Shown piece by piece: positions 5,005-35,590 of a stretch of 64,000 nucleotides of DNA (its first letter is position 1; each line of letters starts with the position of its first letter). A model generated the notes under the pieces. It was not told where the DNA came from and did not search any database. It saw only the letters and a list, made by a program, of their open reading frames with translations. Position numbers and translations under genes: made by a program. This DNA is from Streptomyces cavernae (GTDB taxonomy: Bacteria > Actinomycetota > Actinomycetes > Streptomycetales > Streptomycetaceae). The stretch is from contig NZ_RPDJ01000006.1 of NCBI RefSeq assembly GCF_004023625.1, forward strand, positions 310,001-374,000, given 5' to 3'.

Positions 5005-6150
5005 TCATCCCAGGGGGTGCGCCGCCAGGAGTTCGCCCAGCGCCTCCTCGTGCGCCGCCGCGGGGCCCAGTGAGAGCTCCAGCTGCTTGGCCCAGGCGTG
5101 GTAGCGGTGCAGCGGGTAGTCGGTGTCCGCGCCGAAACCGCCGTGCAGGTGCTGCGCCGTCTGCACCAACCGGCGCACCCCTTCGGACGCCCAGATCTTG
5201 GCGACCGACACGTCACCGGCGGCGGGCAGCGCGCCCTGGGCGTCGGTGCTGACGCGCCAGGCCGCCTGCCACAGGGTCGCTTCCATGGCACGCAGGTCGA
5301 TGTACCGGTCGGCGGCCTGTACGGCGACGGCCTGGAACGTGGCGATCGGGTGCCCGAACTGTTCGCGCTTCCCGGTGTACGCGCTGGTCATCGCGAGTAC
5401 GCCCATGCCCACGCCGAGCGCCAGCGCACAGGTGCCAGTGGCGAGCAGCAGCCGCAACCGCTCCCACGCTCCGTCCGCGGTGATCACATACCGGGGGGCG
5501 ACGCGTACCGAGTCCAGCCGCAGTTCGCCGAGCCGTTCCCCGGTGGTGGAGATCTGTTCGGCGAGCGTGACGCCCTCCTGCGCCGGGCCGACGACAGCGA
5601 GCACCGCCCTGGTTCCGGTGTGGGCCGGCACGGTGTGGGCGGGCACGACGACATGGTCGGCGTTCAGCGCCCAGGGCACCGCTGTCTGCACGCCGTCCAG
5701 TACCCAGCCGTCCCCGGTCTCGTGTGCCGTCACGGCGAGTTCGGCGGGGTCGTGCCCGGTGCGGCCGTTCGACGCGACGGTCAGTACCCGCTCGCCACGT
5801 CCGGCCGGGCCGAGCAGTTCGTCCTTCAGCTCGGTGCTGCCACAGGCCTGTACGGCCAGGGCCGCCGCGCTGTGCTCCAGCAACGGCACCCGGGCCAGCA
5901 CCTTCGCCGACTCGCGCAGCACCAGGCAGAGCGCGATGGCGTCGAGACCGGCCCCGCCGTACTCGGTGTCCAGGAGCAGGCTCAGCAGGTCAGCGTCGGC
6001 CAGCCTGGCCCACAGGGCCCGGTCGAAGTCGTCAGCGACGGCACCGGGGGTCAGCGCGGGGCTCGGCACCCCGTCGGCTGCGACCCCTCGGAACACCGCC
6101 TGTGCCGCCTCGACCGCCGCCTGCTGCTCCTCGGTGAAGGTGAAGTCCAC
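5005..6150 (-). CDS. Acyl-CoA dehydrogenase family protein
   Basis: A 381-residue flavoprotein of the acyl-CoA dehydrogenase fold. It has an N-terminal helical domain (FTFTEEQQAAVEAAQAVF), a central beta domain, and a C-terminal helical domain with TGKREQFGHPIATFQAVAVQAAD and, near the end, HLHGGFGADTDYPLHRY. It oxidises an acyl-CoA to a 2,3-enoyl-CoA, passing electrons to ETF via FAD. The substrate cannot be read from the sequence, but the divergence from straight-chain enzymes and the KstR-type operator upstream fit a steroid-, branched- or ring-derived CoA. The GTG at 6150 was preferred because GGGAGG lies 8 nt upstream; the in-frame ATG at 6174 lacks such a site. Confidence 0.87.
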   Translation of the reverse strand: MDFTFTEEQQAAVEAAQAVFRGVAADGVPSPALTPGAVADDFDRALWARLADADLLSLLLDTEYGGAGLDAIALCLVLRESAKVLARVPLLEHSAAALAVQACGSTELKDELLGPAGRGERVLTVASNGRTGHDPAELAVTAHETGDGWVLDGVQTAVPWALNADHVVVPAHTVPAHTGTRAVLAVVGPAQEGVTLAEQISTTGERLGELRLDSVRVAPRYVITADGAWERLRLLLATGTCALALGVGMGVLAMTSAYTGKREQFGHPIATFQAVAVQAADRYIDLRAMEATLWQAAWRVSTDAQGALPAAGDVSVAKIWASEGVRRLVQTAQHLHGGFGADTDYPLHRYHAWAKQLELSLGPAAAHEEALGELLAAHPLG

Positions 6151-6455
6151 GGTTCCGCCCTCCCACGCGCCCACCGGCTGATCCGACGGGGCGCAAAGAT
6201 AGAACAGGTTCTACAAGAAGGGAACGCCACGACCACCGTCCTGTTCGCTCGGTCGTCCGTCTTCCGGGGCGAGGGCCGTAGGGTGTCAACCGCTGTGGAC
6301 GACTCACGGCCGGTGTGCCGGTCCGGCTGTGCCGGGGCGGCGGGCCTGAGTACCGTTCCGGGTGCGAACGGCGCGGCGGCGCGCACGGGTGCCTCGTCGC
6401 CCTGCGGCCCTGCGGCCCGTCGACGAGACAGCGGACGAACGGCGGACGGGGCGGT
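6151..6455. promoter_or_regulatory. Divergent promoter region, acyl-CoA dehydrogenase / DUF5819 operon
   Basis: This 305-bp gap lies between two divergent transcription units. Apart from the palindrome at 6200-6213 it is GC-rich and has no recognisable -35/-10 pair for the rightward unit. No small gene is supported. Confidence 0.4.
6200..6213. promoter_or_regulatory. KstR-like palindrome upstream of the acyl-CoA dehydrogenase
   Basis: TAGAACAGGTTCTA is a 14-bp palindrome with a 2-nt centre. It matches TNNAACNNGTTNNA, the pattern described for the mycobacterial/rhodococcal TetR regulator KstR of cholesterol catabolism. It lies 50 bp upstream of the GTG start of the leftward acyl-CoA dehydrogenase, where a repressor would block transcription. 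No KstR gene is in the window, so the regulator is inferred. Confidence 0.55.
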
Positions 6456-9481: not shown

Positions 9482-11188
9482 CTATGCCTCCCTGCGCACC
9501 TCCACCATCCGGAACCGGTTGGCCACGAACGCACCGTCGCACAGGGCCGCGTTGGCCGCCGGGTTGCCGCCGGAGCCGTGGAAGTCCGAGAACGCGGCGG
9601 TCTGGTTGACGTACACCCCGCCGGTGAGGTTGAGCGACAGCTGGGCGCACTCCTCCAGACAGGCCTCCTCTACGGCCTCCTCGACCTCCTGGGAGGTCGT
9701 GTACGCCCCGACCGTCATCGCGCCCTTCTCGCGGATCGTGCGCCGCAGCAACTCCACGGCATCGGCGGTGGAGTCGACCGCGACGGCGAAGGAGACTGGT
9801 CCGAAGCACTCGCTGAGGTACGCGGCCTCGTCGTCCGGCCGCTCCCAGTACTTGCGGGCGCCGTCCGCCTTGACGATCACAGGGGTGCGGACCACGGCGC
9901 CGGGGAACTCCGGGTTGGCCACCTCTCGGGAGGCGAGGGCGACCTCGCCGAGGCCGGGCGCGGCCTCCAGTCGTGCCTTGACGTCCGGATTCACGATCGC
10001 GCCGAGCAGGGCGTTCGCCCGGGCGTCGTCGCCCAGCAGACCGCCGACCGCCTTCGCCAGGTCGGCGACCACCTCGTCGTAGGTCTTGGCGCCCTGGTCG
10101 GTGGTGATGCCGTCCCGCGGGATCAGCAGGTTCTGCGGGGTGGTGCACATCTGGCCGCTGTACAGCGACAGGGAGAAGGCGAGGTTGGACAGCATGCCCT
10201 TGTAGTCGTCGGTCGACTCCACGATCACCGTGTTGACGCCGGCCTTCTCCGTGTGGACCTGCGCCTGGCGGGCGTTGGTCTCCAGCCAGTCGCCGAACGC
10301 CGTCGAGCCCGTGTAGTCGATGATCCTGATCTCCGGGCGCAGGGCCAGGGTCTTGGCGATGCCCTCGCCGGGCCGCTCGGCGGCCAGCGCCACCAGGTTC
10401 GCGTCGAAGCCCGCCTCGGCGAGCACCTCGCGCGCGACCTGGACCGTGAGCGCGAGCGGCAGCACCGCGCGCGGGTGGGGCTTGACCAGTACCGGGTTGC
10501 CGGTGGCGAGGGAGGCGAAGAGGCCCGGGTAGCCGTTCCACGTCGGGAAGGTGTTGCAGCCGATCACCAGCGCGATGCCGCGCGGGACGGCCTTGAACTG
10601 CTTGGTGAGCGCGAGCGGGTCGCGTTTGCCCTGCGGCTTGGTCCACTCCGCGGTGTCGGGGGTGCGCACCTGCTCCGCGTACGCGTACGCGACCGCCTCC
10701 AGGGCGCGGTCCTGTGCGTGCGGGCCGCCGGCCTGGAACGCCATCATGAAGGCCTGGCCGCTGGTGTGCATGACCGCGTGCGCGAACTCGTGCGTCCGGT
10801 CGCTGATGCGCTTCAGGATCTCGAGGCACACCACCGCACGGGTCTCCGGGCCCGCGTCGCGCCAGGCGCGCTGCCCCGCGCGCATGGCGGGCAGCAGTAC
10901 GTCGATGTCCGCGTGCGGATACGTGACACCCAGCTCGATGCCGTACGGCGAGACCTCGCCGCCCACCCAGTCGTCCGTGCCGGGCTGGCCGAGGTCGAGG
11001 CGGGTGCCGAGGACGGCGTCGAAGGAGGCCTTGCCCGCGGCCATGTCCAGGCTGCCGTTCTCCCCGTACGCCTTCGGGTGCTCGGGATGCGGGGACCAGT
11101 ACGCGCGCGTGCGGATCGCTTCCAGCGCGTTGTCGAGGGTGGGCCGGTGCTGCGCGACCAGCTGGTGTGCGGTGAGCTCGGCGGCCAT
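9482..11188 (-). CDS. paaN: Phenylacetic acid degradation protein PaaN (aldehyde dehydrogenase type)
   Basis: This 568-residue protein has the N-terminal PaaN signature (AYWSPHPEHPKAYGENGSLD) and an aldehyde dehydrogenase body with GNPVLVKPHPRAV for cofactor binding and SLYSGQMCTTPQN, whose cysteine near residue 348 is the presumed nucleophile. The two-domain PaaZ/PaaN hydratase fusion is absent, consistent with a ring-opening-aldehyde dehydrogenase working on phenylacetyl-CoA-derived oxepin metabolites, or a related CoA aldehyde. The ATG at 11188 is well supported, with GAGGAG about 9 nt upstream. It is divergent from a PaaH-type dehydrogenase across a TetR operator, suggesting co-regulation. 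The paaABCDE oxygenase is not in the window. Confidence 0.88.
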   Translation of the reverse strand: MAAELTAHQLVAQHRPTLDNALEAIRTRAYWSPHPEHPKAYGENGSLDMAAGKASFDAVLGTRLDLGQPGTDDWVGGEVSPYGIELGVTYPHADIDVLLPAMRAGQRAWRDAGPETRAVVCLEILKRISDRTHEFAHAVMHTSGQAFMMAFQAGGPHAQDRALEAVAYAYAEQVRTPDTAEWTKPQGKRDPLALTKQFKAVPRGIALVIGCNTFPTWNGYPGLFASLATGNPVLVKPHPRAVLPLALTVQVAREVLAEAGFDANLVALAAERPGEGIAKTLALRPEIRIIDYTGSTAFGDWLETNARQAQVHTEKAGVNTVIVESTDDYKGMLSNLAFSLSLYSGQMCTTPQNLLIPRDGITTDQGAKTYDEVVADLAKAVGGLLGDDARANALLGAIVNPDVKARLEAAPGLGEVALASREVANPEFPGAVVRTPVIVKADGARKYWERPDDEAAYLSECFGPVSFAVAVDSTADAVELLRRTIREKGAMTVGAYTTSQEVEEAVEEACLEECAQLSLNLTGGVYVNQTAAFSDFHGSGGNPAANAALCDGAFVANRFRMVEVRREA

Positions 11189-11267
11189 GAGGGACCAACT
11201 CCTCGTTCCGGGGAGCGCTTCATCGCGCTCATGAGCTGGGCAGTAATGGACGGACAGGGTTAGAGTA

Positions 11268-11285
11268 ACCGAACGATCGGTCGGT
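11268..11285. promoter_or_regulatory. TetR-type operator in the paaN/paaH divergent region
   Basis: ACCGAACGATCGGTCGGT is an inverted-repeat element (ACCGA...TCGGT) centred between the two divergent starts, 80 bp from paaN and 53 bp from the paaH-like gene. An almost identical element lies at 14059-14076. The TetR gene two genes away is the obvious candidate ligand. Confidence 0.65.
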
Positions 11286-11337
11286 ACAAGGGGGTCCGCC
11301 GCATCTGTGGAAAACCCCGTGCGGGAGGATCACGGGC

Positions 11338-12849
11338 ATGACAGCACTCGACCTCACCAGCCCCGTGGCCGTCGTGGGCAGCGGCACCATGGGCCAGGGC
11401 ATTGCCCAGGTGGCTCTGGTCGCGGGCAATCCCGTGCTGCTGTACGACTCCGTGGCGGGCCGGGCCGATGCGGCGGCCGACGCGATCGGGGGCCGCCTGG
11501 ACCGGCTCGTCGAGAAGGGCCGGCTGACCGGGTCCGCCCGGGACGAGGCCCGCGACCGGCTGCGTCCCGTCACCTCCCTCGCCGAGCTCGCCGACTGCGG
11601 GGTGGTCGTCGAGGCGGTGCTCGAGCAGCTCGACGTGAAGCAGGCGCTGCTGAGGGAGCTGGAGGAGATCGTCGGCGAGGACTGTCTGCTCGCCACGAAC
11701 ACCTCGTCCCTGTCCGTCACGGGCATCGCCGGCGCGCTGCGCAACCCCGGCCGCTGCGTCGGGCTGCACTTCTTCAACCCGGCTCCGCTGATGCCCCTGG
11801 TGGAGGTCGTCTCCGGGTTCGCCACCGACTTCACGTCGGCCACGCGCGCGTACGAGACGGCGCGCGCCTGGGGCAAGACACCGGTCGCCTGCGCCGACAC
11901 CCCCGGCTTCATCGTCAACCGCATCGCACGGCCCTTCTACGCCGAGGCCTTCGCGGTGTACGAGGCCCAGGCCGCCGACCCCGCCACGATCGACGCCGTG
12001 CTGCGCGAGTCCGGCGGGTTCCGCATGGGCGCCTTCGAATTGACCGACCTGATCGGGCAGGACGTCAACGAGTCGGTGACGCACTCGGTATGGCGGTCCT
12101 TCTTCCAGGATGTGCGCTTCACGCCGTCGCTGGCCCAGCGGCGGCTCGTCGAGTCGGGCCGGCTCGGCCGCAAGACCGGGCACGGCTGGTACGACTACTC
12201 GGCCGACGCCGAGCGCCCGGAGCCCCACACCGCGGACCGGTGCGAGCCGCCCGCCTACGTCGTCGCCGAGGGGGGTCTCGGACCGGCCGCCGCGCTGCTC
12301 GCGATGATCCGCGAGGCGGGCATCACGGTCCGCGACGACGAGGAGGACCACGGCACCCGTCTCATCCTGCCCGGCGGTGGCCAGTTGGTCCTCGCCGACG
12401 GACAGACCTCCGTGGAGTTCCGCGACGTCGTCTACTTCGACCTCGCGTTCGACTACCGCAGGGCCACCCGGGTCGCGCTGTCCGCCTCGCAGGACACCTC
12501 GCCCAAGACCCTCGCCGAGGCGTGCGGGCTGTTCCAGGCGCTCGGCAAGGACGTCAGCGTCATCGGGGACATGCCCGGAATGATCGTCGCCCGGACGGTG
12601 GCCCGGATCATCGATCTGGCGGTCGAGGCGGTCGCCAAGGGTGTGGCCACCCCGGAGGACGTCGACACCGCGATGACACTCGGCGCCAACCACCCTCTCG
12701 GGCCGATGGAGTGGTGCCGCAGACTCGGTCAGGGCTGGGCGCACGACTTCCTCGAGGAAATGCACGAACGCGAGCCCTCCGGCCGTTACGCGCCCTCCCT
12801 GGCGCTGTTCCGCCACTATTCCTCCGACCAGTGGGAGGGCACTTCATGA
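11338..12849 (+). CDS. paaH: 3-hydroxyacyl-CoA dehydrogenase (PaaH/PaaC type)
   Basis: A 503-residue protein with an N-terminal Rossmann NAD-binding domain (VVGSGTMGQGIAQVAL, residues 12-27), the NTSSLSVTGIA and GLHFFNPAP catalytic segments, then two 3HCDH C-terminal domains (the second ends LGANHPLGPMEWCRRLG). The length and double C-terminal domain match the PaaC/PaaH branch, which oxidises 3-hydroxyadipyl-CoA in phenylacetate degradation. A general fatty-acid role is possible. The ATG at 11338 follows GGGAGG. The stop overlaps the TetR start (ATGA), so the two are coupled. Confidence 0.85.
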   Translation: MTALDLTSPVAVVGSGTMGQGIAQVALVAGNPVLLYDSVAGRADAAADAIGGRLDRLVEKGRLTGSARDEARDRLRPVTSLAELADCGVVVEAVLEQLDVKQALLRELEEIVGEDCLLATNTSSLSVTGIAGALRNPGRCVGLHFFNPAPLMPLVEVVSGFATDFTSATRAYETARAWGKTPVACADTPGFIVNRIARPFYAEAFAVYEAQAADPATIDAVLRESGGFRMGAFELTDLIGQDVNESVTHSVWRSFFQDVRFTPSLAQRRLVESGRLGRKTGHGWYDYSADAERPEPHTADRCEPPAYVVAEGGLGPAAALLAMIREAGITVRDDEEDHGTRLILPGGGQLVLADGQTSVEFRDVVYFDLAFDYRRATRVALSASQDTSPKTLAEACGLFQALGKDVSVIGDMPGMIVARTVARIIDLAVEAVAKGVATPEDVDTAMTLGANHPLGPMEWCRRLGQGWAHDFLEEMHEREPSGRYAPSLALFRHYSSDQWEGTS

Positions 12850-13436
12850 CCACGGCCAAGCGCGACACCTACACCCCGGAGACGCTGCTTTCCGTCGCCG
12901 TGCAGGTCTTCAACGAACGTGGCTACGACGGCACTTCGATGGAGCACCTGTCCAAGGCGGCCGGTATCTCCAAGTCGTCGATATACCACCACGTCGCCGG
13001 CAAGGAGGAGTTGCTGCGCCGGGCCGTCAGCCGGGCGATCGACGGCCTCTTCGGGATCCTCGACGAGGAGCACGCGCGCGAGGGACGGGCCGTGGAGCGC
13101 CTCGAGTACGTGGTGCGGCGCATGGTCGAGGTGCTCACCGGCGAACTGCCGTATGTGACGCTGCTGCTGAGGGTGCGCGGCAACACCCATACGGAGCGGT
13201 GGGCCCTGGAGCGCCGCCGCGAGTTCGACCACCGGGTGGCGGAACTGCTCAAGGCCGCCGCGGCGGACGGCGACGTGCGCGGCGACGTCGAGGTCCGGCT
13301 CGCGACCCGGCTGGTCTTCGGGATGATCAACTCGATCGTCGAGTGGTACCGGCCCGACGGGCGGGGCATGGGCGCGCGGGAAGTGGCCGACGCCGTGGTG
13401 CGGTTGGTTTTCGCGGGGCTGCGCGAGGAGCACTGA
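12846..13436 (+). CDS. TetR family regulator, likely controls paa and bkd genes
   Basis: A 196-residue repressor with an N-terminal helix-turn-helix of the TetR type (MEHLSKAAGISKSSIYHHVAGKEELL as read across residues ~35-60) and a C-terminal ligand domain of ordinary length. It overlaps the dehydrogenase stop by 4 bp, so it is co-translated with the gene it probably controls. The matching 18-bp operators at 11268-11285 and 14059-14076 flank it, consistent with autoregulation and control of paaN, paaH and the bkd operon. PaaR in other bacteria is also TetR-type and senses phenylacetyl-CoA; whether this one does is not shown. Confidence 0.85.
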   Translation: MTTAKRDTYTPETLLSVAVQVFNERGYDGTSMEHLSKAAGISKSSIYHHVAGKEELLRRAVSRAIDGLFGILDEEHAREGRAVERLEYVVRRMVEVLTGELPYVTLLLRVRGNTHTERWALERRREFDHRVAELLKAAAADGDVRGDVEVRLATRLVFGMINSIVEWYRPDGRGMGAREVADAVVRLVFAGLREEH

Positions 13437-13456
13437 GGCGGGCCCCGGGCCGGCGT

Positions 13457-13957
13457 TCAGCCCGAGGGCTCCAGGTCCTCCTCCTCGAACACCAGCAGCG
13501 TGTGGGTGCTGAGCACCTCGGGTATCGCCTGCAGCTTGGTGAGCACCAGTTCCCGCAGCGCCCGGTTGTCCGGGGTGTGCACCAGCAGCAGGACGTCGAA
13601 GTCGCCGCTGACCAAGGCGATGTGCGCCGCTTCCGGGAATGCGCGCAGCTGTTCGCGCACCGAGCGCCAGGAGTTCTGCACGATCTTCAGCGTGATGTAC
13701 GCGGCCGCGCCCTTGCCCGCCCGCTCGTGGTTGACGCGGGCTCCGAAGCCACGGATCACGCCGTCCTCGATGAGGCGGTTGATGCGTGCGTAGGCGTTGG
13801 CGCGGGAGACATGGACGCGTTCGGCGACGGAGCGGACCGAGGCCCGGCCGTCGGCCCGCAGCATCTGCAGGATGTCCTGGTCTATGGCGTCCAGTGGCCG
13901 GGCGGGCGGGAGCGCGCGATCGCTCTCGGGCTCGTCGGCCATTTGTTCAGGAGCCAT
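13457..13957 (-). CDS. bkdR: Lrp/AsnC family regulator, divergent from bkdABC (BkdR-like)
   Basis: A 166-residue Lrp/AsnC protein with an N-terminal HTH (LDAIDQDILQMLRADGRASV and SRANAYARINRLIEDG, residues ~25-70) and a C-terminal RAM ligand-binding domain (IALVSGDFDVLLLVHTPDN). It is transcribed away from the bkdABC operon across a 192-bp gap, the position of bkdR in Streptomyces, where an Lrp-type protein controls the branched-chain dehydrogenase. The ATG at 13957 was chosen because GAGGCGGGGGGG lies directly upstream; 13942 is the alternative. The symbol is assigned by context. Confidence 0.8.
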   Translation of the reverse strand: MAPEQMADEPESDRALPPARPLDAIDQDILQMLRADGRASVRSVAERVHVSRANAYARINRLIEDGVIRGFGARVNHERAGKGAAAYITLKIVQNSWRSVREQLRAFPEAAHIALVSGDFDVLLLVHTPDNRALRELVLTKLQAIPEVLSTHTLLVFEEEDLEPSG

Positions 13958-14058
13958 GCCCCCCCGCCTCAATACCATGGACGTACTGCGTCCATCTCAG
14001 GGTGTGGAGAACCGTTTGTCCACAGCCTGGAGGTGCCTGTAGCCAAAATGTGCCGACG

Positions 14059-14076
14059 ACCGAACAATCGGTAGGT
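14059..14076. promoter_or_regulatory. Second TetR-type operator, upstream of bkdA
   Basis: ACCGAACAATCGGTAGGT differs from the operator at 11268-11285 at only two of 18 positions. It lies 73 bp upstream of the bkdA ATG and 101 bp upstream of the divergent Lrp gene start. Confidence 0.62.
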
Positions 14077-14149: not shown

Positions 14150-15331
14150 ATGACGGTCATGGAGCAGCGGGGCGCTTACCGGCCCACCCCGCCGCCCGCC
14201 TGGCAGCCCCGCACCGACCCCGCGCCGCTGCTGCCCGACGCGCGGCCGTACCGCGTGCTGGGCACCGACGCCGCCGACGCCGTCGCTGATGCACACCCCG
14301 CGCTGCTGCGCCGGCTCTACGCGCAGCTGGTATGCGGCCGCCGCTACAACACCCAGGCCACCGCCCTCACCCGGCAGGGCCGCCTCGCCGTCTACCCCTC
14401 CAGCACCGGCCAGGAGGCCTGCGAGGTCGCCGCGGCGCTCGTCCTCGAGGACCACGACTGGCTCTTCCCCAGCTACCGCGACACCCTGGCCGCCGTGGCC
14501 CGCGGCCTGGACCCGGTCCAGGCGCTGACGCTGCTGCGCGGAGACTGGCACACCGGCTACGACCCGCACGAGCACCGCGTCGCGCCCCTGTGCACACCGC
14601 TCGCCACCCAGCTCCCGCACGCCGTGGGCCTCGCGCACGCCGCCCGTCTCAAGGGCGACGACGTGGTCGCGCTGGCCATGGTCGGCGACGGCGGCACCAG
14701 CGAGGGTGACTTCCACGAGGCGCTGAACTTCGCGGCCGTCTGGCAGGCACCTGTGGTCTTCCTGGTCCAGAACAACGGTTACGCGATCTCCGTACCGCTC
14801 GCCAAGCAGACCGCCGCGCCGTCCCTGGCCCACAAGGCCGTCGGTTACGGCATGCCCGGCCGTCTGGTCGACGGCAACGACGCGGTGGCGCTGCACGAGG
14901 TGCTGTCCGCCGCCGTACGGCATGCGCGCGCGGGCGGTGGCCCCACGCTGGTGGAGGCGGTGACGTACCGGATCGACGCCCACACCAACGCCGACGACGC
15001 GACCCGCTACCGCAACGACAGCGAGGTCGAGGCCTGGCGTGAGCACGACCCGATCGCCCTGCTGGAGCGGGAGCTGACCGCGCGCGGGCTGCTCGACGAG
15101 GACGGAGTGCGGGCCGCGCGCGAGGACGCCGAGGCGATGGCCGCCGATCTGCGCGAGCGCATGAACCAGGACCCGGCGCTCGACCCCATGGACCTGTTCG
15201 CCCATGTGTACGCCGAACCCACCCCCCAGCTGCTGGAGCAGCAGACCCAGCTGCGGGCCGAGTTGGACGCCGAGCAGGGCGTGACCGCGGAAGCCGGGGC
15301 CGCCGCCCACGCGGAAGGAGACCGGCGATGA
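14150..15331 (+). CDS. bkdA: Branched-chain 2-oxoacid dehydrogenase E1 alpha
   Basis: The alpha subunit of the thiamine-diphosphate E1 decarboxylase, 393 residues. The ThDP/Mg motif GDGGTSEGDFHEALNFAAV begins near residue 179 and ends in the usual QNNGYAIS. With E1 beta and E2 it converts 2-oxo acids from Val, Leu and Ile to branched acyl-CoAs, which serve as precursors of iso/anteiso fatty acids and polyketide starters. The ATG at 14150 follows GAGGAGG; an in-frame GTG/ATG further upstream would include the operator region. The stop overlaps bkdB (ATGA). The N-terminal ~25 residues are Pro-rich and variable. Confidence 0.92.
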   Translation: MTVMEQRGAYRPTPPPAWQPRTDPAPLLPDARPYRVLGTDAADAVADAHPALLRRLYAQLVCGRRYNTQATALTRQGRLAVYPSSTGQEACEVAAALVLEDHDWLFPSYRDTLAAVARGLDPVQALTLLRGDWHTGYDPHEHRVAPLCTPLATQLPHAVGLAHAARLKGDDVVALAMVGDGGTSEGDFHEALNFAAVWQAPVVFLVQNNGYAISVPLAKQTAAPSLAHKAVGYGMPGRLVDGNDAVALHEVLSAAVRHARAGGGPTLVEAVTYRIDAHTNADDATRYRNDSEVEAWREHDPIALLERELTARGLLDEDGVRAAREDAEAMAADLRERMNQDPALDPMDLFAHVYAEPTPQLLEQQTQLRAELDAEQGVTAEAGAAAHAEGDRR

Positions 15332-16332
15332 CCACGGTCGCCCTCAAGCCCGCAACCATGGCGCAGGCCCTCGGTCGCGCGATGCGCGACGCGATGGCCG
15401 CCGATCCGACGGTCCACGTCATGGGCGAGGACGTCGGCACCCTCGGCGGTGTCTTCCGGGTCACCGACGGGCTCGCCAAGGAGTTCGGCGAGGACCGCTG
15501 TACGGACACACCGCTCGCCGAGGCGGGCATCCTGGGGACGGCCGTGGGCATGGCCATGTACGGCCTGAGGCCCGTGGTGGAGATGCAGTTCGACGCCTTC
15601 GCCTACCCGGCGTTCGAGCAGCTGATCTCTCACGTGGCGCGGATGCGCAACCGCACGCGCGGGGCGATGCCGCTGCCCATCACCGTCCGGGTCCCCTACG
15701 GCGGCGGGATCGGCGGCGTCGAGCACCACAGTGACTCCTCCGAGGCGTACTACATGGCCACGCCGGGGCTCCACGTCGTCACGCCCGCGACCGTCGCCGA
15801 CGCCTACGGGCTGCTGCGCGCCGCCATCGCCTCCGACGACCCGGTGGTCTTCCTGGAACCCAAACGGCTGTACTGGTCGAAGGAGTCCTGGAACCCCGAG
15901 GAGCCGGTGCCCGTCGAGCCCATCGGCCGCGCGGTGGTGCGGCGTCCGGGCCGCAGCGCCACGCTGATCACCTACGGGCCGTCCGTGCCGGTGTGCCTGG
16001 AGGCGGCCGAGGCGGCGTGCGAGGAGGGCTGGGACCTCGAGGTCGTCGACCTGCGCTCGCTGGTGCCGTTCGACGACGAGACGGTCGCCGCGTCCGTCCG
16101 CAGGACGGGCCGGGCGGTGGTGGTGCACGAGTCCGGCGGCTTCGGCGGACCCGGCGGGGAGATCGCCGCGCGCGTCACCGAGCGCTGCTTCCACCATCTG
16201 GAGGCCCCGGTGCTGCGGGTCGCCGGGTTCGACATCCCGTATCCGCCGCCGATGCTGGAGCGGCACCACCTGCCCGGCGTCGACCGCATCCTGGACGCCG
16301 TGGCACGCCTGCAGTGGGAGGCGGAGAGCTGA
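15328..16332 (+). CDS. bkdB: Branched-chain 2-oxoacid dehydrogenase E1 beta
   Basis: The 334-residue transketolase-type beta subunit, with MGEDVGTLGGVFRVTDGL near the N-terminus, PYGGGIGGVEHHSDSSEAY in the middle, and the C-terminal domain VVDLRSLVPFDDETV. It pairs with BkdA to form the alpha2beta2 E1. It overlaps bkdA by 4 bp and bkdC by 1 bp (TGATG), a tight operon. Its 334-residue length matches my memory of the S. avermitilis bkdABC cluster. Confidence 0.93.
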   Translation: MTTVALKPATMAQALGRAMRDAMAADPTVHVMGEDVGTLGGVFRVTDGLAKEFGEDRCTDTPLAEAGILGTAVGMAMYGLRPVVEMQFDAFAYPAFEQLISHVARMRNRTRGAMPLPITVRVPYGGGIGGVEHHSDSSEAYYMATPGLHVVTPATVADAYGLLRAAIASDDPVVFLEPKRLYWSKESWNPEEPVPVEPIGRAVVRRPGRSATLITYGPSVPVCLEAAEAACEEGWDLEVVDLRSLVPFDDETVAASVRRTGRAVVVHESGGFGGPGGEIAARVTERCFHHLEAPVLRVAGFDIPYPPPMLERHHLPGVDRILDAVARLQWEAES

Positions 16333-17831
16333 TGGCGCAGGTCCTCGAATTCAAGCTGCCGGACCTCGGCGAGGGGCTCACGGAGGCGGAGATCGTCCGC
16401 TGGCTGGTCCAGGTCGGCGATGTGGTCGCGGTCGACCAGCCGGTCGTCGAGGTCGAGACGGCCAAGGCGATGGTCGAGGTGCCCTGCCCGTACGGTGGCG
16501 TCGTCACGGCCCGCTACGGCGAGGAGGGCAGTGAACTTCCCGTGGGTGCACCGCTGCTGACGGTGGCGGTGGGTGCGCCTGCCCCGGCCGGTGAGGACGC
16601 CGGGTCGGGGAACGTGCTCGTGGGCTATGGCACGGGGGCCGCTCCCGCACGGCGCAGGCGGGTGCGACCGGGGGTCGTGGGGCTGCGCGCGCCGGGCCCG
16701 GGCGAACCGCCTTCGCCGGGAACGGGCGAACCGCGCTCGGCGGGGACGAGCGAACCGCGTTCGGCGGGGAGGAGCGATCCGCTTTCGCCGGGGAAGGGCG
16801 AGCACGAGTCCGCCCGCGCGGCCGGACGGCGGAGCCCCGACGGTCCAGTGCCGGTCATCTCGCCGCTCGTAAGGCGTCTGGCCCGGCAGTACGGGCTCGA
16901 CCTGAGGGAGCTGGCGGGGTCCGGGCCCGACGGGCTGATCCTGAGGGCAGACGTTGAGCACGCGGCGCACGCGACGCGGACGGTACCCGTCGCGGCTGCC
17001 CCCGCTGCCCCCGCCGTCCCCACGGCTCCGGCAACCCGGTCGGGCCCGGCTGTCGAGGCGGTCCCGGCGGTCCCGGTGGAACCGGTCCGACCGGTGTCAG
17101 CGCAGCCGGGTACCGTGCCCGTTGCCGGTGCGGCCGCCGGCGCGGGTACGCGGGTCCCTCTGCGCGGTATCCGGGGCGCCGTCGCCGACAAGCTCTCCCG
17201 CAGCCGGCGCGAGATCCCCGACGCCACCTGCTGGGTGGACGCCGACGCCACCGAACTGCTGCACGCGCGCGCGGCGATGAACGCCGCGGCGGGACCGAAG
17301 ATCCCGCTGATCGCGTTGCTGGCCCGGATCTGCACCGCGGCGCTGGCCCGGTACCCCGAGCTCAACGCGACGGTCGACACCGAGGCGCGTGAGATCGTCC
17401 GGCTGGACGCGGTGCATCTCGGGTTCGCCGCGCAGACCGATCGGGGGCTGCTGGTCCCGGTCGTCCGGGACGCGCACACGCGGCACGCGGAGTCGCTGGG
17501 CGCCGAGTTCGCGCGGCTCACCGAGGCGGCCCGGTCCGGAACGCTGACGCCCGGGGACCTCACGGGCGGCACCTTCACGCTGAACAACTACGGAGTGTTC
17601 GGTGTCGACGGCTCCACACCGGTCATCAACCACCCCGAGGCGGCCATGCTCGGCGTCGGTCGCATCGTCCCCAAGCCGTGGGTGCACCAGGGGGAGCTGG
17701 CGGTACGCCACGTCGTCCAGCTCTCGCTCACCTTCGACCACCGCGTGTGCGACGGCGGCACCGCCGGAGGGTTCCTGCGGTACGTGGCCGACTGCGTGGA
17801 ACAGCCGGCGGTGCTGCTGAGGACCCTGTAA
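16332..17831 (+). CDS. bkdC: Dihydrolipoamide acyltransferase E2 of branched-chain dehydrogenase
   Basis: The 499-residue E2 core. It has one lipoyl domain (residues 1-80, lipoylated lysine 45 in VETAKAMVEV), a peripheral subunit-binding domain (~176-212, ISPLVRRLARQYGLDLREL), a Pro/Ala linker and the catalytic acyltransferase domain ending in SLTFDHRVCDGG with its histidine near 470. The linker at ~122-158 carries four or five imperfect Ser/Glu/Pro/Gly repeats (EPRSAG, DPLSPG) that are not in the second E2 of this window. No E3 (lipoamide dehydrogenase) is here, so it must be supplied from elsewhere. A short hairpin CCCCCGAAGGGGG follows at 17841-17853. Confidence 0.92.
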   Translation: MAQVLEFKLPDLGEGLTEAEIVRWLVQVGDVVAVDQPVVEVETAKAMVEVPCPYGGVVTARYGEEGSELPVGAPLLTVAVGAPAPAGEDAGSGNVLVGYGTGAAPARRRRVRPGVVGLRAPGPGEPPSPGTGEPRSAGTSEPRSAGRSDPLSPGKGEHESARAAGRRSPDGPVPVISPLVRRLARQYGLDLRELAGSGPDGLILRADVEHAAHATRTVPVAAAPAAPAVPTAPATRSGPAVEAVPAVPVEPVRPVSAQPGTVPVAGAAAGAGTRVPLRGIRGAVADKLSRSRREIPDATCWVDADATELLHARAAMNAAAGPKIPLIALLARICTAALARYPELNATVDTEAREIVRLDAVHLGFAAQTDRGLLVPVVRDAHTRHAESLGAEFARLTEAARSGTLTPGDLTGGTFTLNNYGVFGVDGSTPVINHPEAAMLGVGRIVPKPWVHQGELAVRHVVQLSLTFDHRVCDGGTAGGFLRYVADCVEQPAVLLRTL

Positions 17832-31889: not shown

Positions 31890-33074
31890 GTGACCGTGGA
31901 GAGCACTGCCGCGCGCAAACCGCGACGCAGCGCCGGTACGAAGCGCACCAGCGCCAGGAAGTCACCGAGCACAGAGCCCGCACTCGTTCAGCTTCTGACG
32001 CCCGAGGGCAAGCGGGTCAGGACGGCGCAGAACGCGGAGTACGAACCGTACGTCGAGGCCGTCACCCCCGAAGAGCTGCGCGGACTGTACCGGGACATGG
32101 TGCTGACCCGCCGCTTCGACGCCGAGGCCACCTCCCTGCAGCGCCAGGGCGAGCTGGGCCTGTGGGCCTCGCTGCTCGGCCAGGAGGCCGCCCAGATCGG
32201 CTCCGGGCGGGCCCTGCGCGACGACGACTACGTCTTCCCGACCTACCGCGAGCACGGCGTCGCCTGGTGCCGCGGGGTCGACCCCACCAATCTGCTCGGC
32301 ATGTTCCGCGGTGTGAACAACGGCGGCTGGGACCCCAACGGCAACAATTTCCATCTGTACACGATCGTCATCGGCTCGCAGACCCTGCACGCCACCGGCT
32401 ACGCCATGGGCATCGCCAAGGACGGCGCCGACTCCGCCGTGATCGCGTACTTCGGCGACGGCGCGTCCAGCCAGGGCGACGTCGCTGAATCGTTCACCTT
32501 CTCCGCCGTCTACAACGCCCCCGTCGTGTTCTTCTGCCAGAACAACCAGTGGGCGATCTCCGAACCCACCGAGAAGCAGACCCGGGTGCCGCTCTACCAG
32601 CGCGCGCAGGGCTTCGGCTTCCCGGGCGTCCGCGTCGACGGCAACGACGTCCTCGCCTGCCTCGCCGTCACCAGGTGGGCCCTGGAGCGGGCCCGCCGGG
32701 GCGAGGGACCCACGCTGGTGGAGGCGTTCACCTACCGCATGGGCGCCCACACCACCTCCGACGACCCGACCCGCTACCGCCACGACGACGAGCGGGCCGC
32801 CTGGGAGGCGAAGGACCCGATCGCCCGCCTGCGCAGCTACCTCGAGTCCGAAACCGACACGCCCCAGGAGCTCGAGGGCTTCTTCGCGGAACTCGAGACC
32901 GAGAGCGAGGCGTTGGGAAGGCGAGTGCGCGAAGTGGTGCGAGCCATGCCGGACCCGGACCACTTCGCCATCTTCGAGAACGTGTACGCGGACGGACACG
33001 CGCTGGTCGACGAGGAGCGCGCACAGTTCGCCGCGTACCAGGCGTCGTTCGCGGACGTGGAAGGGGGCAAGTGA
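31890..33074 (+). CDS. bkdF: Branched-chain 2-oxoacid dehydrogenase E1 alpha, second cluster
   Basis: A 394-residue E1 alpha subunit with the ThDP motif GDGASSQGDVAESFTFSAV from residue 189, ending QNNQWAIS. The N-terminus (~1-50) is basic and disordered (ARKPRRSAGTKRTSARKS), unlike BkdA. The start is GTG 31890, preceded by GGAGG; the longer open reading upstream lacks an RBS and crosses the palindromes. bkdG starts 1 bp after the stop. In S. avermitilis a bkdFGH cluster makes the branched starter units of avermectin; the naming here follows subunit order and size and was not checked. Confidence 0.9.
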   Translation: MTVESTAARKPRRSAGTKRTSARKSPSTEPALVQLLTPEGKRVRTAQNAEYEPYVEAVTPEELRGLYRDMVLTRRFDAEATSLQRQGELGLWASLLGQEAAQIGSGRALRDDDYVFPTYREHGVAWCRGVDPTNLLGMFRGVNNGGWDPNGNNFHLYTIVIGSQTLHATGYAMGIAKDGADSAVIAYFGDGASSQGDVAESFTFSAVYNAPVVFFCQNNQWAISEPTEKQTRVPLYQRAQGFGFPGVRVDGNDVLACLAVTRWALERARRGEGPTLVEAFTYRMGAHTTSDDPTRYRHDDERAAWEAKDPIARLRSYLESETDTPQELEGFFAELETESEALGRRVREVVRAMPDPDHFAIFENVYADGHALVDEERAQFAAYQASFADVEGGK

Positions 33075-33075
33075 C

Positions 33076-34053
33076 ATGGCCGAGAAGATGGCGCTCGCCA
33101 AGGCGATCAACGAGTCGCTGCGCAAGGCCCTCGAAGCCGACCCCAAGGTCCTGATCATGGGTGAGGACGTCGGCAAGCTCGGCGGTGTCTTCCGGGTCAC
33201 GGACGGTCTGCAGAAGGACTTCGGCGAGGACCGGGTCATCGACACCCCGCTCGCCGAGTCCGGCATCGTGGGCACCGCGATCGGCCTGGCGCTGCGCGGT
33301 TACCGCCCGGTGGTGGAGATCCAGTTCGACGGTTTCGTCTTCCCGGCCTACGACCAGATCGTCACCCAGCTCGCGAAGATGCACGCGCGTTCCCTCGGCA
33401 AGGTCAAGCTCCCGGTCGTCGTGCGCATCCCCTACGGCGGCGGCATCGGCGCGGTCGAGCACCACAGCGAGTCCCCCGAGGCGCTGTTCGCGCATGTCGC
33501 GGGCCTGAAGATCGCCTCCCCGTCCAACGCGTCGGACGCGTACTGGATGATGCAGCAGGCCATCCAGAGCGACGACCCGGTGATCTTCTTCGAGCCGAAG
33601 CGGCGCTACTGGGACAAGGCGGAGGTCAGCCGTGAGGCGATCCCCGACCCGCTGCACAAGGCGCGTGTGGTGCGCGAGGGCACCGATCTGACGCTGGCCG
33701 CCTACGGGCCGATGGTGAAGCTCTGCCACGAGGTGGCCCAGGCGGCCGCCGAGGAAGGCAAGTCCCTCGAAGTGCTGGACCTGCGCTCGGTCTCCCCGAT
33801 CGACTTCGACTCCGTCCAGGCCTCGGTCCAGAAGACCGGCCGCCTGGTGGTGGTGCACGAGGCACCGGTGTTCTTCGGTTCGGGCGCGGAGATCGCGGCC
33901 CGGATCACCGAGCGGTGCTTCTACCACCTGGAGGCGCCCGTCCTGCGGGTCGGCGGCTACCACGCCCCGTACCCGCCGGCGCGCCTGGAGGAGGAGTACC
34001 TGCCGGGGCTTGACCGGGTGCTCGACGCCGTCGACCGCTCGCTGGCGTACTGA
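33076..34053 (+). CDS. bkdG: Branched-chain 2-oxoacid dehydrogenase E1 beta, second cluster
   Basis: A 325-residue beta subunit: MGEDVGKLGGVFRVTDGL, PYGGGIGAVEHHSESPEAL and LDLRSVSPIDFDSV. It is clearly homologous to BkdB of the same window but diverged. The ATG follows the bkdF stop by 1 bp with GAAGGGGG as RBS. It ends 10 bp before the E2 start. Confidence 0.93.
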   Translation: MAEKMALAKAINESLRKALEADPKVLIMGEDVGKLGGVFRVTDGLQKDFGEDRVIDTPLAESGIVGTAIGLALRGYRPVVEIQFDGFVFPAYDQIVTQLAKMHARSLGKVKLPVVVRIPYGGGIGAVEHHSESPEALFAHVAGLKIASPSNASDAYWMMQQAIQSDDPVIFFEPKRRYWDKAEVSREAIPDPLHKARVVREGTDLTLAAYGPMVKLCHEVAQAAAEEGKSLEVLDLRSVSPIDFDSVQASVQKTGRLVVVHEAPVFFGSGAEIAARITERCFYHLEAPVLRVGGYHAPYPPARLEEEYLPGLDRVLDAVDRSLAY

Positions 34054-34063
34054 GGGAGAGGCC

Positions 34064-35590
34064 GTGACGACGATGACAGACACGTCCGTGCGGGAGTTCA
34101 AGATGCCCGACGTGGGCGAGGGACTCACCGAGGCCGAGATCCTCAAGTGGTACGTACAGCCCGGGGACCAGGTCAGCGACGGGCAGGTCGTCTGCGAGGT
34201 GGAGACCGCCAAGGCGGCGGTGGAACTGCCGATCCCGTACGACGGCGTGGTCCGCGAACTGCGCTTCGCCGAGGGCACGACGGTGGACGTCGGCCAGGTG
34301 ATCATCTCGGTGGACGTGGGCGGGGGCGCTCCCGCCGCCGCCGAGACGGCACAGGCGGCCCCGCCGGCCCAGGAGGAGGCCCCCGCCGGACCGTCCGCGC
34401 AGCCCGCGGCCCCCGCCGGGTCGAAGGGCCGCAAGCCGGTCCTCGTCGGATACGGCGTCGCGGAGTCCTCCACCAGGCGCCGGCCCCGTAAGCCGGTCGA
34501 GCCCCCGCGTCAGGAGCCCTCCGCGGCGCCCGTGGCCCGGACCCCCGCAGCCCCGCAGCAGATCCCGGCACCGAAGCAGGCCCCGGTCCCGCAGCCGCCG
34601 GCCGACCCCTACGACGCCGCCACGGCGGTCCAGTCCGAGCTCAACGGCCACGGCCGTGAGGCCGCGCGCCCCCTGGCCAAGCCTCCGGTGCGCAAGCTGG
34701 CCAAGGACCTCGGGGTGGACCTGGCGACCGTCACCCCGTCCGGCCCGGACGGGATCATCACCCGCGAGGACGTGCACGCGGCGGTGGCCCCGGCCCCGGA
34801 GGCCGCGCCCGCTGCCACGCCCGTCGCCGCACCCGCCCCGGCGGTGACCGAGGTCCCGGCGCCCGCCGCGGCCTCGGACGCCCGGGAGACCCGGATTCCC
34901 ATCAAGGGCGTCCGCAAGGCCACGGCCGCCGCGATGGTCGGCTCGGCCTTCACCGCACCGCACGTCACCGAGTTCGTGACGGTCGACGTGACGCGCACGA
35001 TGCGGCTGGTCGAAGAGCTCAAGCGGGCCCCGGAGGACTACGGGTTCGAGGGCCTCAGGGTCAACCCGCTGCTGCTGATCGCCAAGGCGCTGCTGGTGGC
35101 GATCCGGCGCAATCCGGAGGTCAACGCCTCCTGGGACGAGGCGAACCAGGAGATCGTCCTCAAGCACTACGTCAACCTGGGCATCGCGGCGGCCACCCCG
35201 CGCGGTCTGATCGTGCCGAACATCAAGGACGCGCATGCCAAGACGCTGCCCGAACTGGCCGCGGCCCTGAGTGAGCTGGTGTCGACGGCCCGCGAGGGCA
35301 AGACGTCTCCGGCGGCGATGCAGGGCGGTACGGTCACCATCACCAACGTCGGTGTCTTCGGTGTCGACACCGGAACGCCCATCCTCAACCCCGGCGAGTC
35401 CGCGATCCTCGCGGTCGGCGCGATCAAGCTCCAGCCGTGGGTCCACAAGGGGAAGGTGAAGCCCCGCCAGGTCACCACCCTGGCGCTGTCCTTCGACCAC
35501 CGTCTCATCGACGGCGAGCTGGGTTCCAGGCTTCTGGCCGATGTGGCGGCGCTCCTGGAGCAGCCGAAGCGGCTGATCACCTGGGCGTAG
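34064..35590 (+). CDS. bkdH: Dihydrolipoamide acyltransferase E2, second cluster
   Basis: A 508-residue E2 starting at GTG 34064 (RBS GAGGGAGAGG); ATG 34073 is the alternative. Lipoyl domain 1-85 has lysine 50 in VETAKAAVEL. The subunit-binding domain (~205-245) reads PPVRKLAKDLGVDLATV. The catalytic domain ends in SFDHRLIDG with the histidine at 479. Pro/Ala/Gln-rich linkers separate the domains. It has no Ser/Glu/Pro repeat like the BkdC linker. A strong terminator follows within 10 bp. Confidence 0.93.
   Translation: MTTMTDTSVREFKMPDVGEGLTEAEILKWYVQPGDQVSDGQVVCEVETAKAAVELPIPYDGVVRELRFAEGTTVDVGQVIISVDVGGGAPAAAETAQAAPPAQEEAPAGPSAQPAAPAGSKGRKPVLVGYGVAESSTRRRPRKPVEPPRQEPSAAPVARTPAAPQQIPAPKQAPVPQPPADPYDAATAVQSELNGHGREAARPLAKPPVRKLAKDLGVDLATVTPSGPDGIITREDVHAAVAPAPEAAPAATPVAAPAPAVTEVPAPAAASDARETRIPIKGVRKATAAAMVGSAFTAPHVTEFVTVDVTRTMRLVEELKRAPEDYGFEGLRVNPLLLIAKALLVAIRRNPEVNASWDEANQEIVLKHYVNLGIAAATPRGLIVPNIKDAHAKTLPELAAALSELVSTAREGKTSPAAMQGGTVTITNVGVFGVDTGTPILNPGESAILAVGAIKLQPWVHKGKVKPRQVTTLALSFDHRLIDGELGSRLLADVAALLEQPKRLITWA

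Follow-up and report, generated by a model that had tools for sequence, protein, structure and literature searches.

A PaaR-type operator before the bkdABC operon of Streptomyces cavernae and its relatives, and a possible link of the Bkd complex to phenylacetate catabolism

Introduction

The question raised by this locus is whether one repressor might govern both the genes of phenylacetate catabolism (paa) and the bkdABC operon, in which bkdA, bkdB and bkdC encode the E1 alpha, E1 beta and E2 components of a 2-oxoacid dehydrogenase complex. The stretch analysed, referred to throughout as the window, comprises 64,000 nucleotides from Streptomyces cavernae (RefSeq assembly GCF_004023625.1, contig NZ_RPDJ01000006.1, positions 310,001 to 374,000). 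A first-pass annotation of the window had drawn attention to two similar 18-mers, one between paaN and paaH and one before bkdA, enclosing a gene for a TetR-type regulator. It proposed from these a single regulator which, alongside the Lrp-type BkdR, would tie aromatic and fatty-acid CoA degradation to branched-chain 2-oxoacid oxidation. The analysis described here leads to the view that PaaR, a known TetR repressor, is highly likely to repress bkdABC along with the paa genes, with phenylacetyl-CoA relieving that repression.

Results

Two copies of one operator type

The 18-mers at 11268-11285 and 14059-14076, both read on the plus strand, are identical at 16 of 18 bases, with two differences, as the annotation had stated, and have ACCGA-N4-TCGGT in common. 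Allowing up to three mismatches, three matches were found in the window against 0.12 expected by chance, and none of 100 shuffled sequences reached three; two of these matches are one palindromic site counted on both strands. A 22-position matrix was trained on 18 distinct 22-mers, chosen by hand-picked core strings near tetR and paaN, plus two paa sites of the same genome, one ahead of paaA and one ahead of paaI; none of the training sites came from bkdA. The matrix gave 31.3 at position 11264 (operator 1) and 22.0 at position 14055 (operator 2); the training set contains the sequence of operator 1, contributed by relatives, but not that of operator 2. With shifted copies of the two operators set aside, the next-best score in the window was 7.8. 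Simulated sequence of 6 Mb with the dinucleotide make-up of the window contained no position scoring 22 or more and one scoring 20 or more. A chance resemblance of the two sites is thus ruled out by the shuffles, the matrix scan and the simulation.

The site before bkdA is conserved

Both operators are present in all 43 of a set of Streptomyces loci (L130-L172) as well as in the window, the bkdA site with an exact 17-base core. A wider count used the 87 Streptomyces genomes with a fetched locus, a subset of the genomes searched. The exact core occurs in 80 of the 87 and a one-mismatch site in three more (G020, G027, G116). Five of the 87 were not scorable: G100, G102, G108 and G014 have no bkdA start in view (G014 does have the core), and in G010 an 814-base run of N covers the stretch upstream of bkdA, so that G010, at one time taken for a bkdA gene lacking the site, was withdrawn as such. 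All 82 scorable genomes carry the site, 79 exactly and three with one mismatch, at 15-158 bp from bkdA (median 75). Far from being absent from related species, the second site is near-invariant.

The exact 19-mer CGACCGAACAATCGGTAGG was found in at least 120 stretches of the species collection. Among the matches listed, the 80 titled stretches all come from Streptomyces, Kitasatospora or Streptacidiphilus; in 116 of 120 the 19-mer lies 48-175 bp upstream of bkdA, and in the remaining four (L259, L265, L330, L350) it lies no more than 265 bp from the end of the piece. Where loci from elsewhere in the order have bkdA no more than 3.3 kb downstream of tetR, a site precedes bkdA in five of five cases (L073-L077), and bkdR was not found by tblastn in four of these five.

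The TetR gene between the sites encodes a known regulator, PaaR

The best PDB match of the TetR protein is 2iai (SCO3833) at 337 bits; the second, Thermus 3vpr, which we take to be the structure of PfmR, reaches only 78 bits. TetR-type family models matched the protein in 22 cases, none above its cut-off, each model being made for another specific regulator. Of 57 loci (L073-L129) that depart from the usual arrangement in Streptomyces and come mostly from other genera, 52 have paaA, paaC, paaE, paaK or paaN no further than about 6 kb from its relative; none of these genes is nearby in L092, L101, L106, L114 and L129. In the Streptomyces loci paaN and often paaH lie near tetR. Palindromic operators of the ACCG..CGGT type precede paa operons, and in species with no intervening paaH the operator stands immediately 5' of tetR. 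No site above a matrix score of 15 was found near the TetR relative in L094, L119, L120 or L122-L124. Because of its orthology with SCO3833 and the paa genes around it, the TetR gene between the two sites is assigned on sequence grounds as paaR. A new type of TetR regulator was considered and rejected, since both operator type and regulator are already known as PaaR. Two Streptomyces loci, L088 (G033) and L089 (G011), contain a second PaaR-like TetR, 60-63% identical to that of the window, near other paa genes.

PaaR-type operators at other paa genes

A scan of the S. cavernae assembly (10.4 Mb, 131 contigs) at up to three mismatches gave 17 rows, versus three with the pattern read backwards. 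Outside the window, sites lie before paaA (contig C19), before a second paaA (C46) and before a paaI-paaK pair (C25); a further site on C46 is flanked by a second paaN and a second paaI-paaK pair. Both paaA genes, the C25 paaI and paaK and the second paaN score above curated cut-offs, and the C46 paaI-paaK pair was identified by similarity only. The paa genes of this genome are dispersed (L234, L235 and L236 on C25, C46 and C19), with two paaA, two paaI-paaK pairs and a second paaN. An operator-like site scoring 22 was also seen in this single genome at 1638-1642 of L238 (C72), just 5' of a gene with no NCBIfam match.

Other Streptomyces (L220, L224, L228, L232, L233) have an extra operator a few kb upstream of paaN, directly before paaA; the paaA call in L220 was checked with a family model. 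These sites had been considered as preceding an acyl-CoA dehydrogenase gene like that at 5005-6174 of the window, which was rejected since they precede paaA. A third site of this kind is lacking in the window: the place upstream of paaN that in several relatives is taken by paaA and its operator contains none. In two species, at L222 (G049) and L223 (G040), an operator-like site immediately precedes a short gene, of about 172 codons, with no NCBIfam match.

Placement at the bkdA promoter

The coordinates of the features are collected in Table 1. Operators 1 and 2 have both the TetR gene and the Lrp-type bkdR between them, and the 18-mer of operator 2 stops 73 bp 5' of the bkdA ATG. The sequence TTGTCC-N18-TAGCCA is well conserved among relatives and oriented toward bkdA. 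It may function as the bkdA promoter, in which case the transcript would be expected to start at or within operator 2, a position suited to a repressor. The inverted repeat at 13977-13995 is a candidate site for BkdR. From its adjoining position to the SCO3833 orthologue, bkdR appears to be the orthologue of SCO3832, the gene named bkdR in PMC8176718.

Table 1. Genes and sequence elements of the window around the two PaaR-type operators.
Feature	Positions	Strand	Basis and remarks
paaN (aldehyde dehydrogenase family)	9482..11188	-	TIGR02288 985 bits, above cut-off 579
Operator 1, PaaR-type	11264..11285 (18-mer 11268-11285)		between divergent paaN and paaH-tetR; matrix 31.3
paaH-like 3-hydroxyacyl-CoA dehydrogenase	11338..12849	+	PRK08268 621 bits, above cut-off 508; PaaH model TIGR02279 563 bits, below cut-off 669
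tetR (paaR, assigned SCO3833 orthologue)	12846..13436	+	overlaps 3' end of paaH; PDB match 2iai and gene context
bkdR, Lrp/AsnC-type regulator	13457..13978	-	Lrp-family models match, every one under cut-off
Inverted repeat ATGGACG-TACTG-CGTCCAT (N5 spacer)	13977..13995		between bkdR and bkdA; partly conserved
-35/-10-like element TTGTCC-N18-TAGCCA	14016..14045	+	conserved columns, immediately upstream of operator 2
Operator 2, PaaR-type	14055..14076 (18-mer 14059-14076)		bkdR-bkdA intergenic; matrix 22.0
bkdA, 2-oxoacid dehydrogenase E1 alpha	14150..15331	+	open reading frame list, family models, PDB matches
bkdB, E1 beta	15328..16332	+	open reading frame list, family models
bkdC, E2	16332..17831	+	open reading frame list, family models
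Second 2-oxoacid dehydrogenase cluster, bkdFGH-like	31890..35590	+	40, 57 and 35% identity to BkdA, BkdB and BkdC; no PaaR-type operator

The lie of operator 2 between the divergent bkdR and bkdA leaves room for an arrangement in which PaaR acts mainly on bkdR and reaches bkdABC only through BkdR. This is hardly to be expected, given that the promoter-like element beside operator 2 is oriented to bkdA and that four of the loci from elsewhere in the order keep a site before bkdA though no bkdR was found in them.

Direct action of PaaR on bkdA would then proceed as follows. PaaR would block transcription from two places: the promoter region of paaN and paaH, where some species have the site immediately ahead of the PaaR gene itself, and the bkdA promoter, just downstream of the -10-like element. 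As phenylacetyl-CoA builds up it would bind PaaR, which would leave the DNA, and paaN, paaH-paaR and bkdABC would be turned on together. BkdR is a likely second input at the same intergenic region. The sequence work establishes the identity, conservation and placement of the sites, and the identity of the regulator through orthology and gene context. Binding and repression by PaaR are inferred, as is phenylacetyl-CoA as its ligand, which has been reported for PaaR of Thermus and Burkholderia.

Which TetR protein reads the bkdA site

On its score, placement and conservation the bkdA site is very probably a PaaR site. An alternative is that the site is read by a different TetR protein, such as a regulator of fatty-acid or branched-chain acyl-CoA metabolism, the likeness to a PaaR site being incidental. 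Related TetR proteins do read similar palindromes, the site of Thermus PfmR being TACCGACCGNTNGGTN, and the S. cavernae genome gave 135 first-look TetR candidates, of which 53 were scored and one matched at an E value of 1e-40 or better. However, the sites of AccR and PccD, acyl-CoA and branched-chain TetR regulators of actinomycetes, are unlike this one where they are given in Table 2 of PMC10933834, and the ACCGA-N4-TCGGT of the two window sites is identical. This TetR was not found in four near-complete Streptomyces genomes (G037, G388, G496 and G354, 98-100% complete), and these have no operators at up to one mismatch; paaA is present in three of them and absent from G354. A looser pattern gave one match with one mismatch in G037, not above the control of two. 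The incomplete TetR-less genome G001 (79%) has no site either. We regard a different regulator at bkdA as very unlikely.

Several observations weigh against control by PaaR and should be set beside those above. Another TetR protein of like specificity could read the bkdA site. Eight rows of the S. cavernae scan (L002, L005, L007-L010, L012, L013) have no paa gene; they are probably chance matches or the sites of other regulators. The incomplete genome G428 (81%) is TetR-less and yet has sites, most simply explained by tetR having fallen into an assembly gap. Palindromes with shuffled half-sites gave a median of 5.5 matches in 50 loci, compared with 193 for the real palindrome in 100 loci, but five of 40 such palindromes gave 31-87 matches in 50 loci. 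Single weak matches therefore mean little, and the case rests on position and conservation. Finally, 17 bkdA loci not beside tetR (L201-L206, L208-L218; four from the same order and 13 from elsewhere in the class) had a maximum score of 12.9 and no site. PaaR control of bkd genes as a general trait of actinobacteria was rejected because of these loci, and as far as sequence comparison goes the link is confined to some members of the order Streptomycetales.

The proposal of a single operator type and one nearby TetR protein for both sites is supported, the second site being close to invariant among relatives. The regulator is not of a new kind, being the known PaaR.

Discussion

Relation to known regulators

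PaaR of Corynebacterium glutamicum is said, in work by Chen et al. of 2012, to recognise a 22-bp motif, ACTNACCGNNCGNNCGGTNAGT, which in that reported form resembles the ACTAACCGATCGTTCAGTTAGT found in L113, L116 and L118; bkd genes are not known to be among its targets. The closest described system is PaaR of S. pristinaespiralis (SSDG_03033), for which Zhao et al. 2015 is cited in PMC10933834 and PMC7089894. Like the regulator of the window it is a TetR repressor of paa genes, and its putative site, printed as AACGA-N4-TCGGT (PMC10933834), is close to the ACCGA-N4-TCGGT of the window; it is described for paa genes, and bkd genes go unmentioned in the available text of the same two articles. 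C. glutamicum PaaR is likewise a TetR repressor of paa genes (PMC9493321). The PaaR proteins of Thermus thermophilus (TTHA0973) and Burkholderia cenocepacia repress paa operons and are released by phenylacetyl-CoA (PMC6651687, PMC9493321). Their sites, CNAACGNNCGTTNG and ACCGACCGGTCGGTT respectively, differ from those of the window, and no 2-oxoacid dehydrogenase operon is named in the available text of these articles.

T. thermophilus PfmR (TTHB023), a TetR protein with the site cited above, is tied to phenylacetate and fatty-acid genes (PMC7022988). BkaR, PccD and AccR, also TetR proteins, have been connected in actinomycetes with the metabolism of branched chains and of propionyl-CoA, and the available passages of PMC11596240, PMC10933834 and PMC8176718 mention no paa genes with them. 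Control of bkd genes by PaaR was unreported in the literature searched, in the portions available, which included PMC13186573, PMC9239090 and PMC9206652, with the primary reports on PaaR of S. pristinaespiralis and of C. glutamicum outside its scope. PaaR and its operator type are already known; the extension to bkdABC did not come up in that literature.

What the bkdABC complex does

The first-pass annotation placed bkdABC in branched-chain oxidation, and that part of its proposal is less well supported, given that the second, bkdFGH-like cluster has no PaaR-type site and that bkd-paa gene rows in other genomes suggest an aromatic role. The name bkdFGH has its history in S. avermitilis. Family models and structures do not settle the matter. 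The E1 alpha subunit BkdA matches pyruvate dehydrogenase (213 bits), a Thermus 2-oxo acid dehydrogenase (210) and human BCKDH (178) in the PDB, and NCBIfam labels it pyruvate dehydrogenase E1 alpha (430 bits, cut-off 411).

Our tentative proposal, a real possibility if still a little short of probable, is that in Streptomycetaceae the bkdABC complex works within the phenylacetate pathway, as a phenylpyruvate (arylpyruvate) dehydrogenase. It would convert the oxo acid of phenylalanine straight into phenylacetyl-CoA without the help of PaaK, this product would be the inducer that removes PaaR from the complex's own promoter, and bkdFGH would serve the branched-chain amino acids. This proposal is favoured because of the co-regulation with paa genes and the bkd-paa gene row. 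It has a rival concerning the enzyme only and leaving the regulatory role of PaaR untouched: bkdABC may encode an ordinary branched-chain 2-oxoacid dehydrogenase, with PaaR doing no more than link it to CoA status, for which phenylacetyl-CoA is the signal. Branched-chain catabolism is what the genes are named for and what published work on bkdR deals with (PMC8176718), and bkdABC relatives in other families mostly come with bkdR and without a PaaR site. Speaking against it, a like cluster 14 kb away (31890-35590) was found by the matrix scan of the window to be without any PaaR-type site, the family models call both E1 alpha subunits pyruvate dehydrogenase and so do not fix the substrate, and a related complex stands in one row with paa genes elsewhere. 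This branched-chain reading, too, has slightly less than even odds.

This PaaR was found in none of the three Streptomyces genomes that carry the gene rows, namely G037 (L389), G388 (L390) and G496 (L391). In each, one strand reads bkdA-bkdB-bkdC, an enoyl-CoA hydratase-like gene, paaA, (paaB), paaC and paaE. In G496 neighbouring genes from bkdA by way of the hydratase gene to paaA, four junctions in all, either overlap by 4-13 bases or are 6 bases apart, and for that reason the row is very probably one operon, as predicted from the sequence. Its paaA, paaB, paaC and paaE score above curated cut-offs, the hydratase gene under the PaaG cut-off. The E1 alpha subunits of the three genomes are 60-63% identical to BkdA of the window. 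In a tree of E1 alpha proteins they form a clade separate from that of the Streptomyces proteins with a PaaR site, each supported at 100/100, the deep forks being unsettled; the complex of the three genomes is likely to be of independent origin. The gene row suggests a role of the complex in aromatic catabolism.

Together with these rows, expression in S. rimosus and a proposal made for PglB/PglC are independent links between the bkdABC complex and PHENYLACETATE. In S. rimosus HP126 three genes for branched-chain dehydrogenase E1/E2 subunits were up by 4.6-5.0 log2, and alongside them paaC-E by 3.3-4.1 and paaK by 3.1 log2 (PMC10612213, Table 2). Against reading this as joint control, the column for the HP126 derivative has bkd down by 2.7-2.9, paaC-E down by only 0-1.4 and paaK by 1.3, HP126 is a mutagenized strain, and PaaR is not named by the authors, who in the available text treat the dehydrogenase and paa genes as two catabolic pathways. 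That the locus tags represent the orthologous bkd locus we infer from their order, which also tells against the comparison. PglB/PglC, a Streptomyces pyruvate-dehydrogenase-like E1 pair of pristinamycin biosynthesis, has been suggested to convert phenylpyruvate to phenylacetyl-CoA (PMC7089894); unlike bkdABC it belongs to secondary metabolism.

Significance

If control by PaaR is correct, an operon that lies beside paaR in nearly all Streptomyces examined, and that is filed under branched-chain breakdown, would join the phenylacetate regulon. Such membership suggests that the complex serves the breakdown of aromatic amino acids and not only of branched-chain ones. It would also offer a reason why two 2-oxoacid dehydrogenase clusters lie at a distance of 14 kb from each other, and an arylpyruvate role, if true, would explain why these neighbouring Streptomyces clusters stand under different control. 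Precursor engineering, whether for branched acyl-CoA starters or for the phenylacetyl-CoA that goes into phenylglycine and tropolone compounds, would change accordingly.

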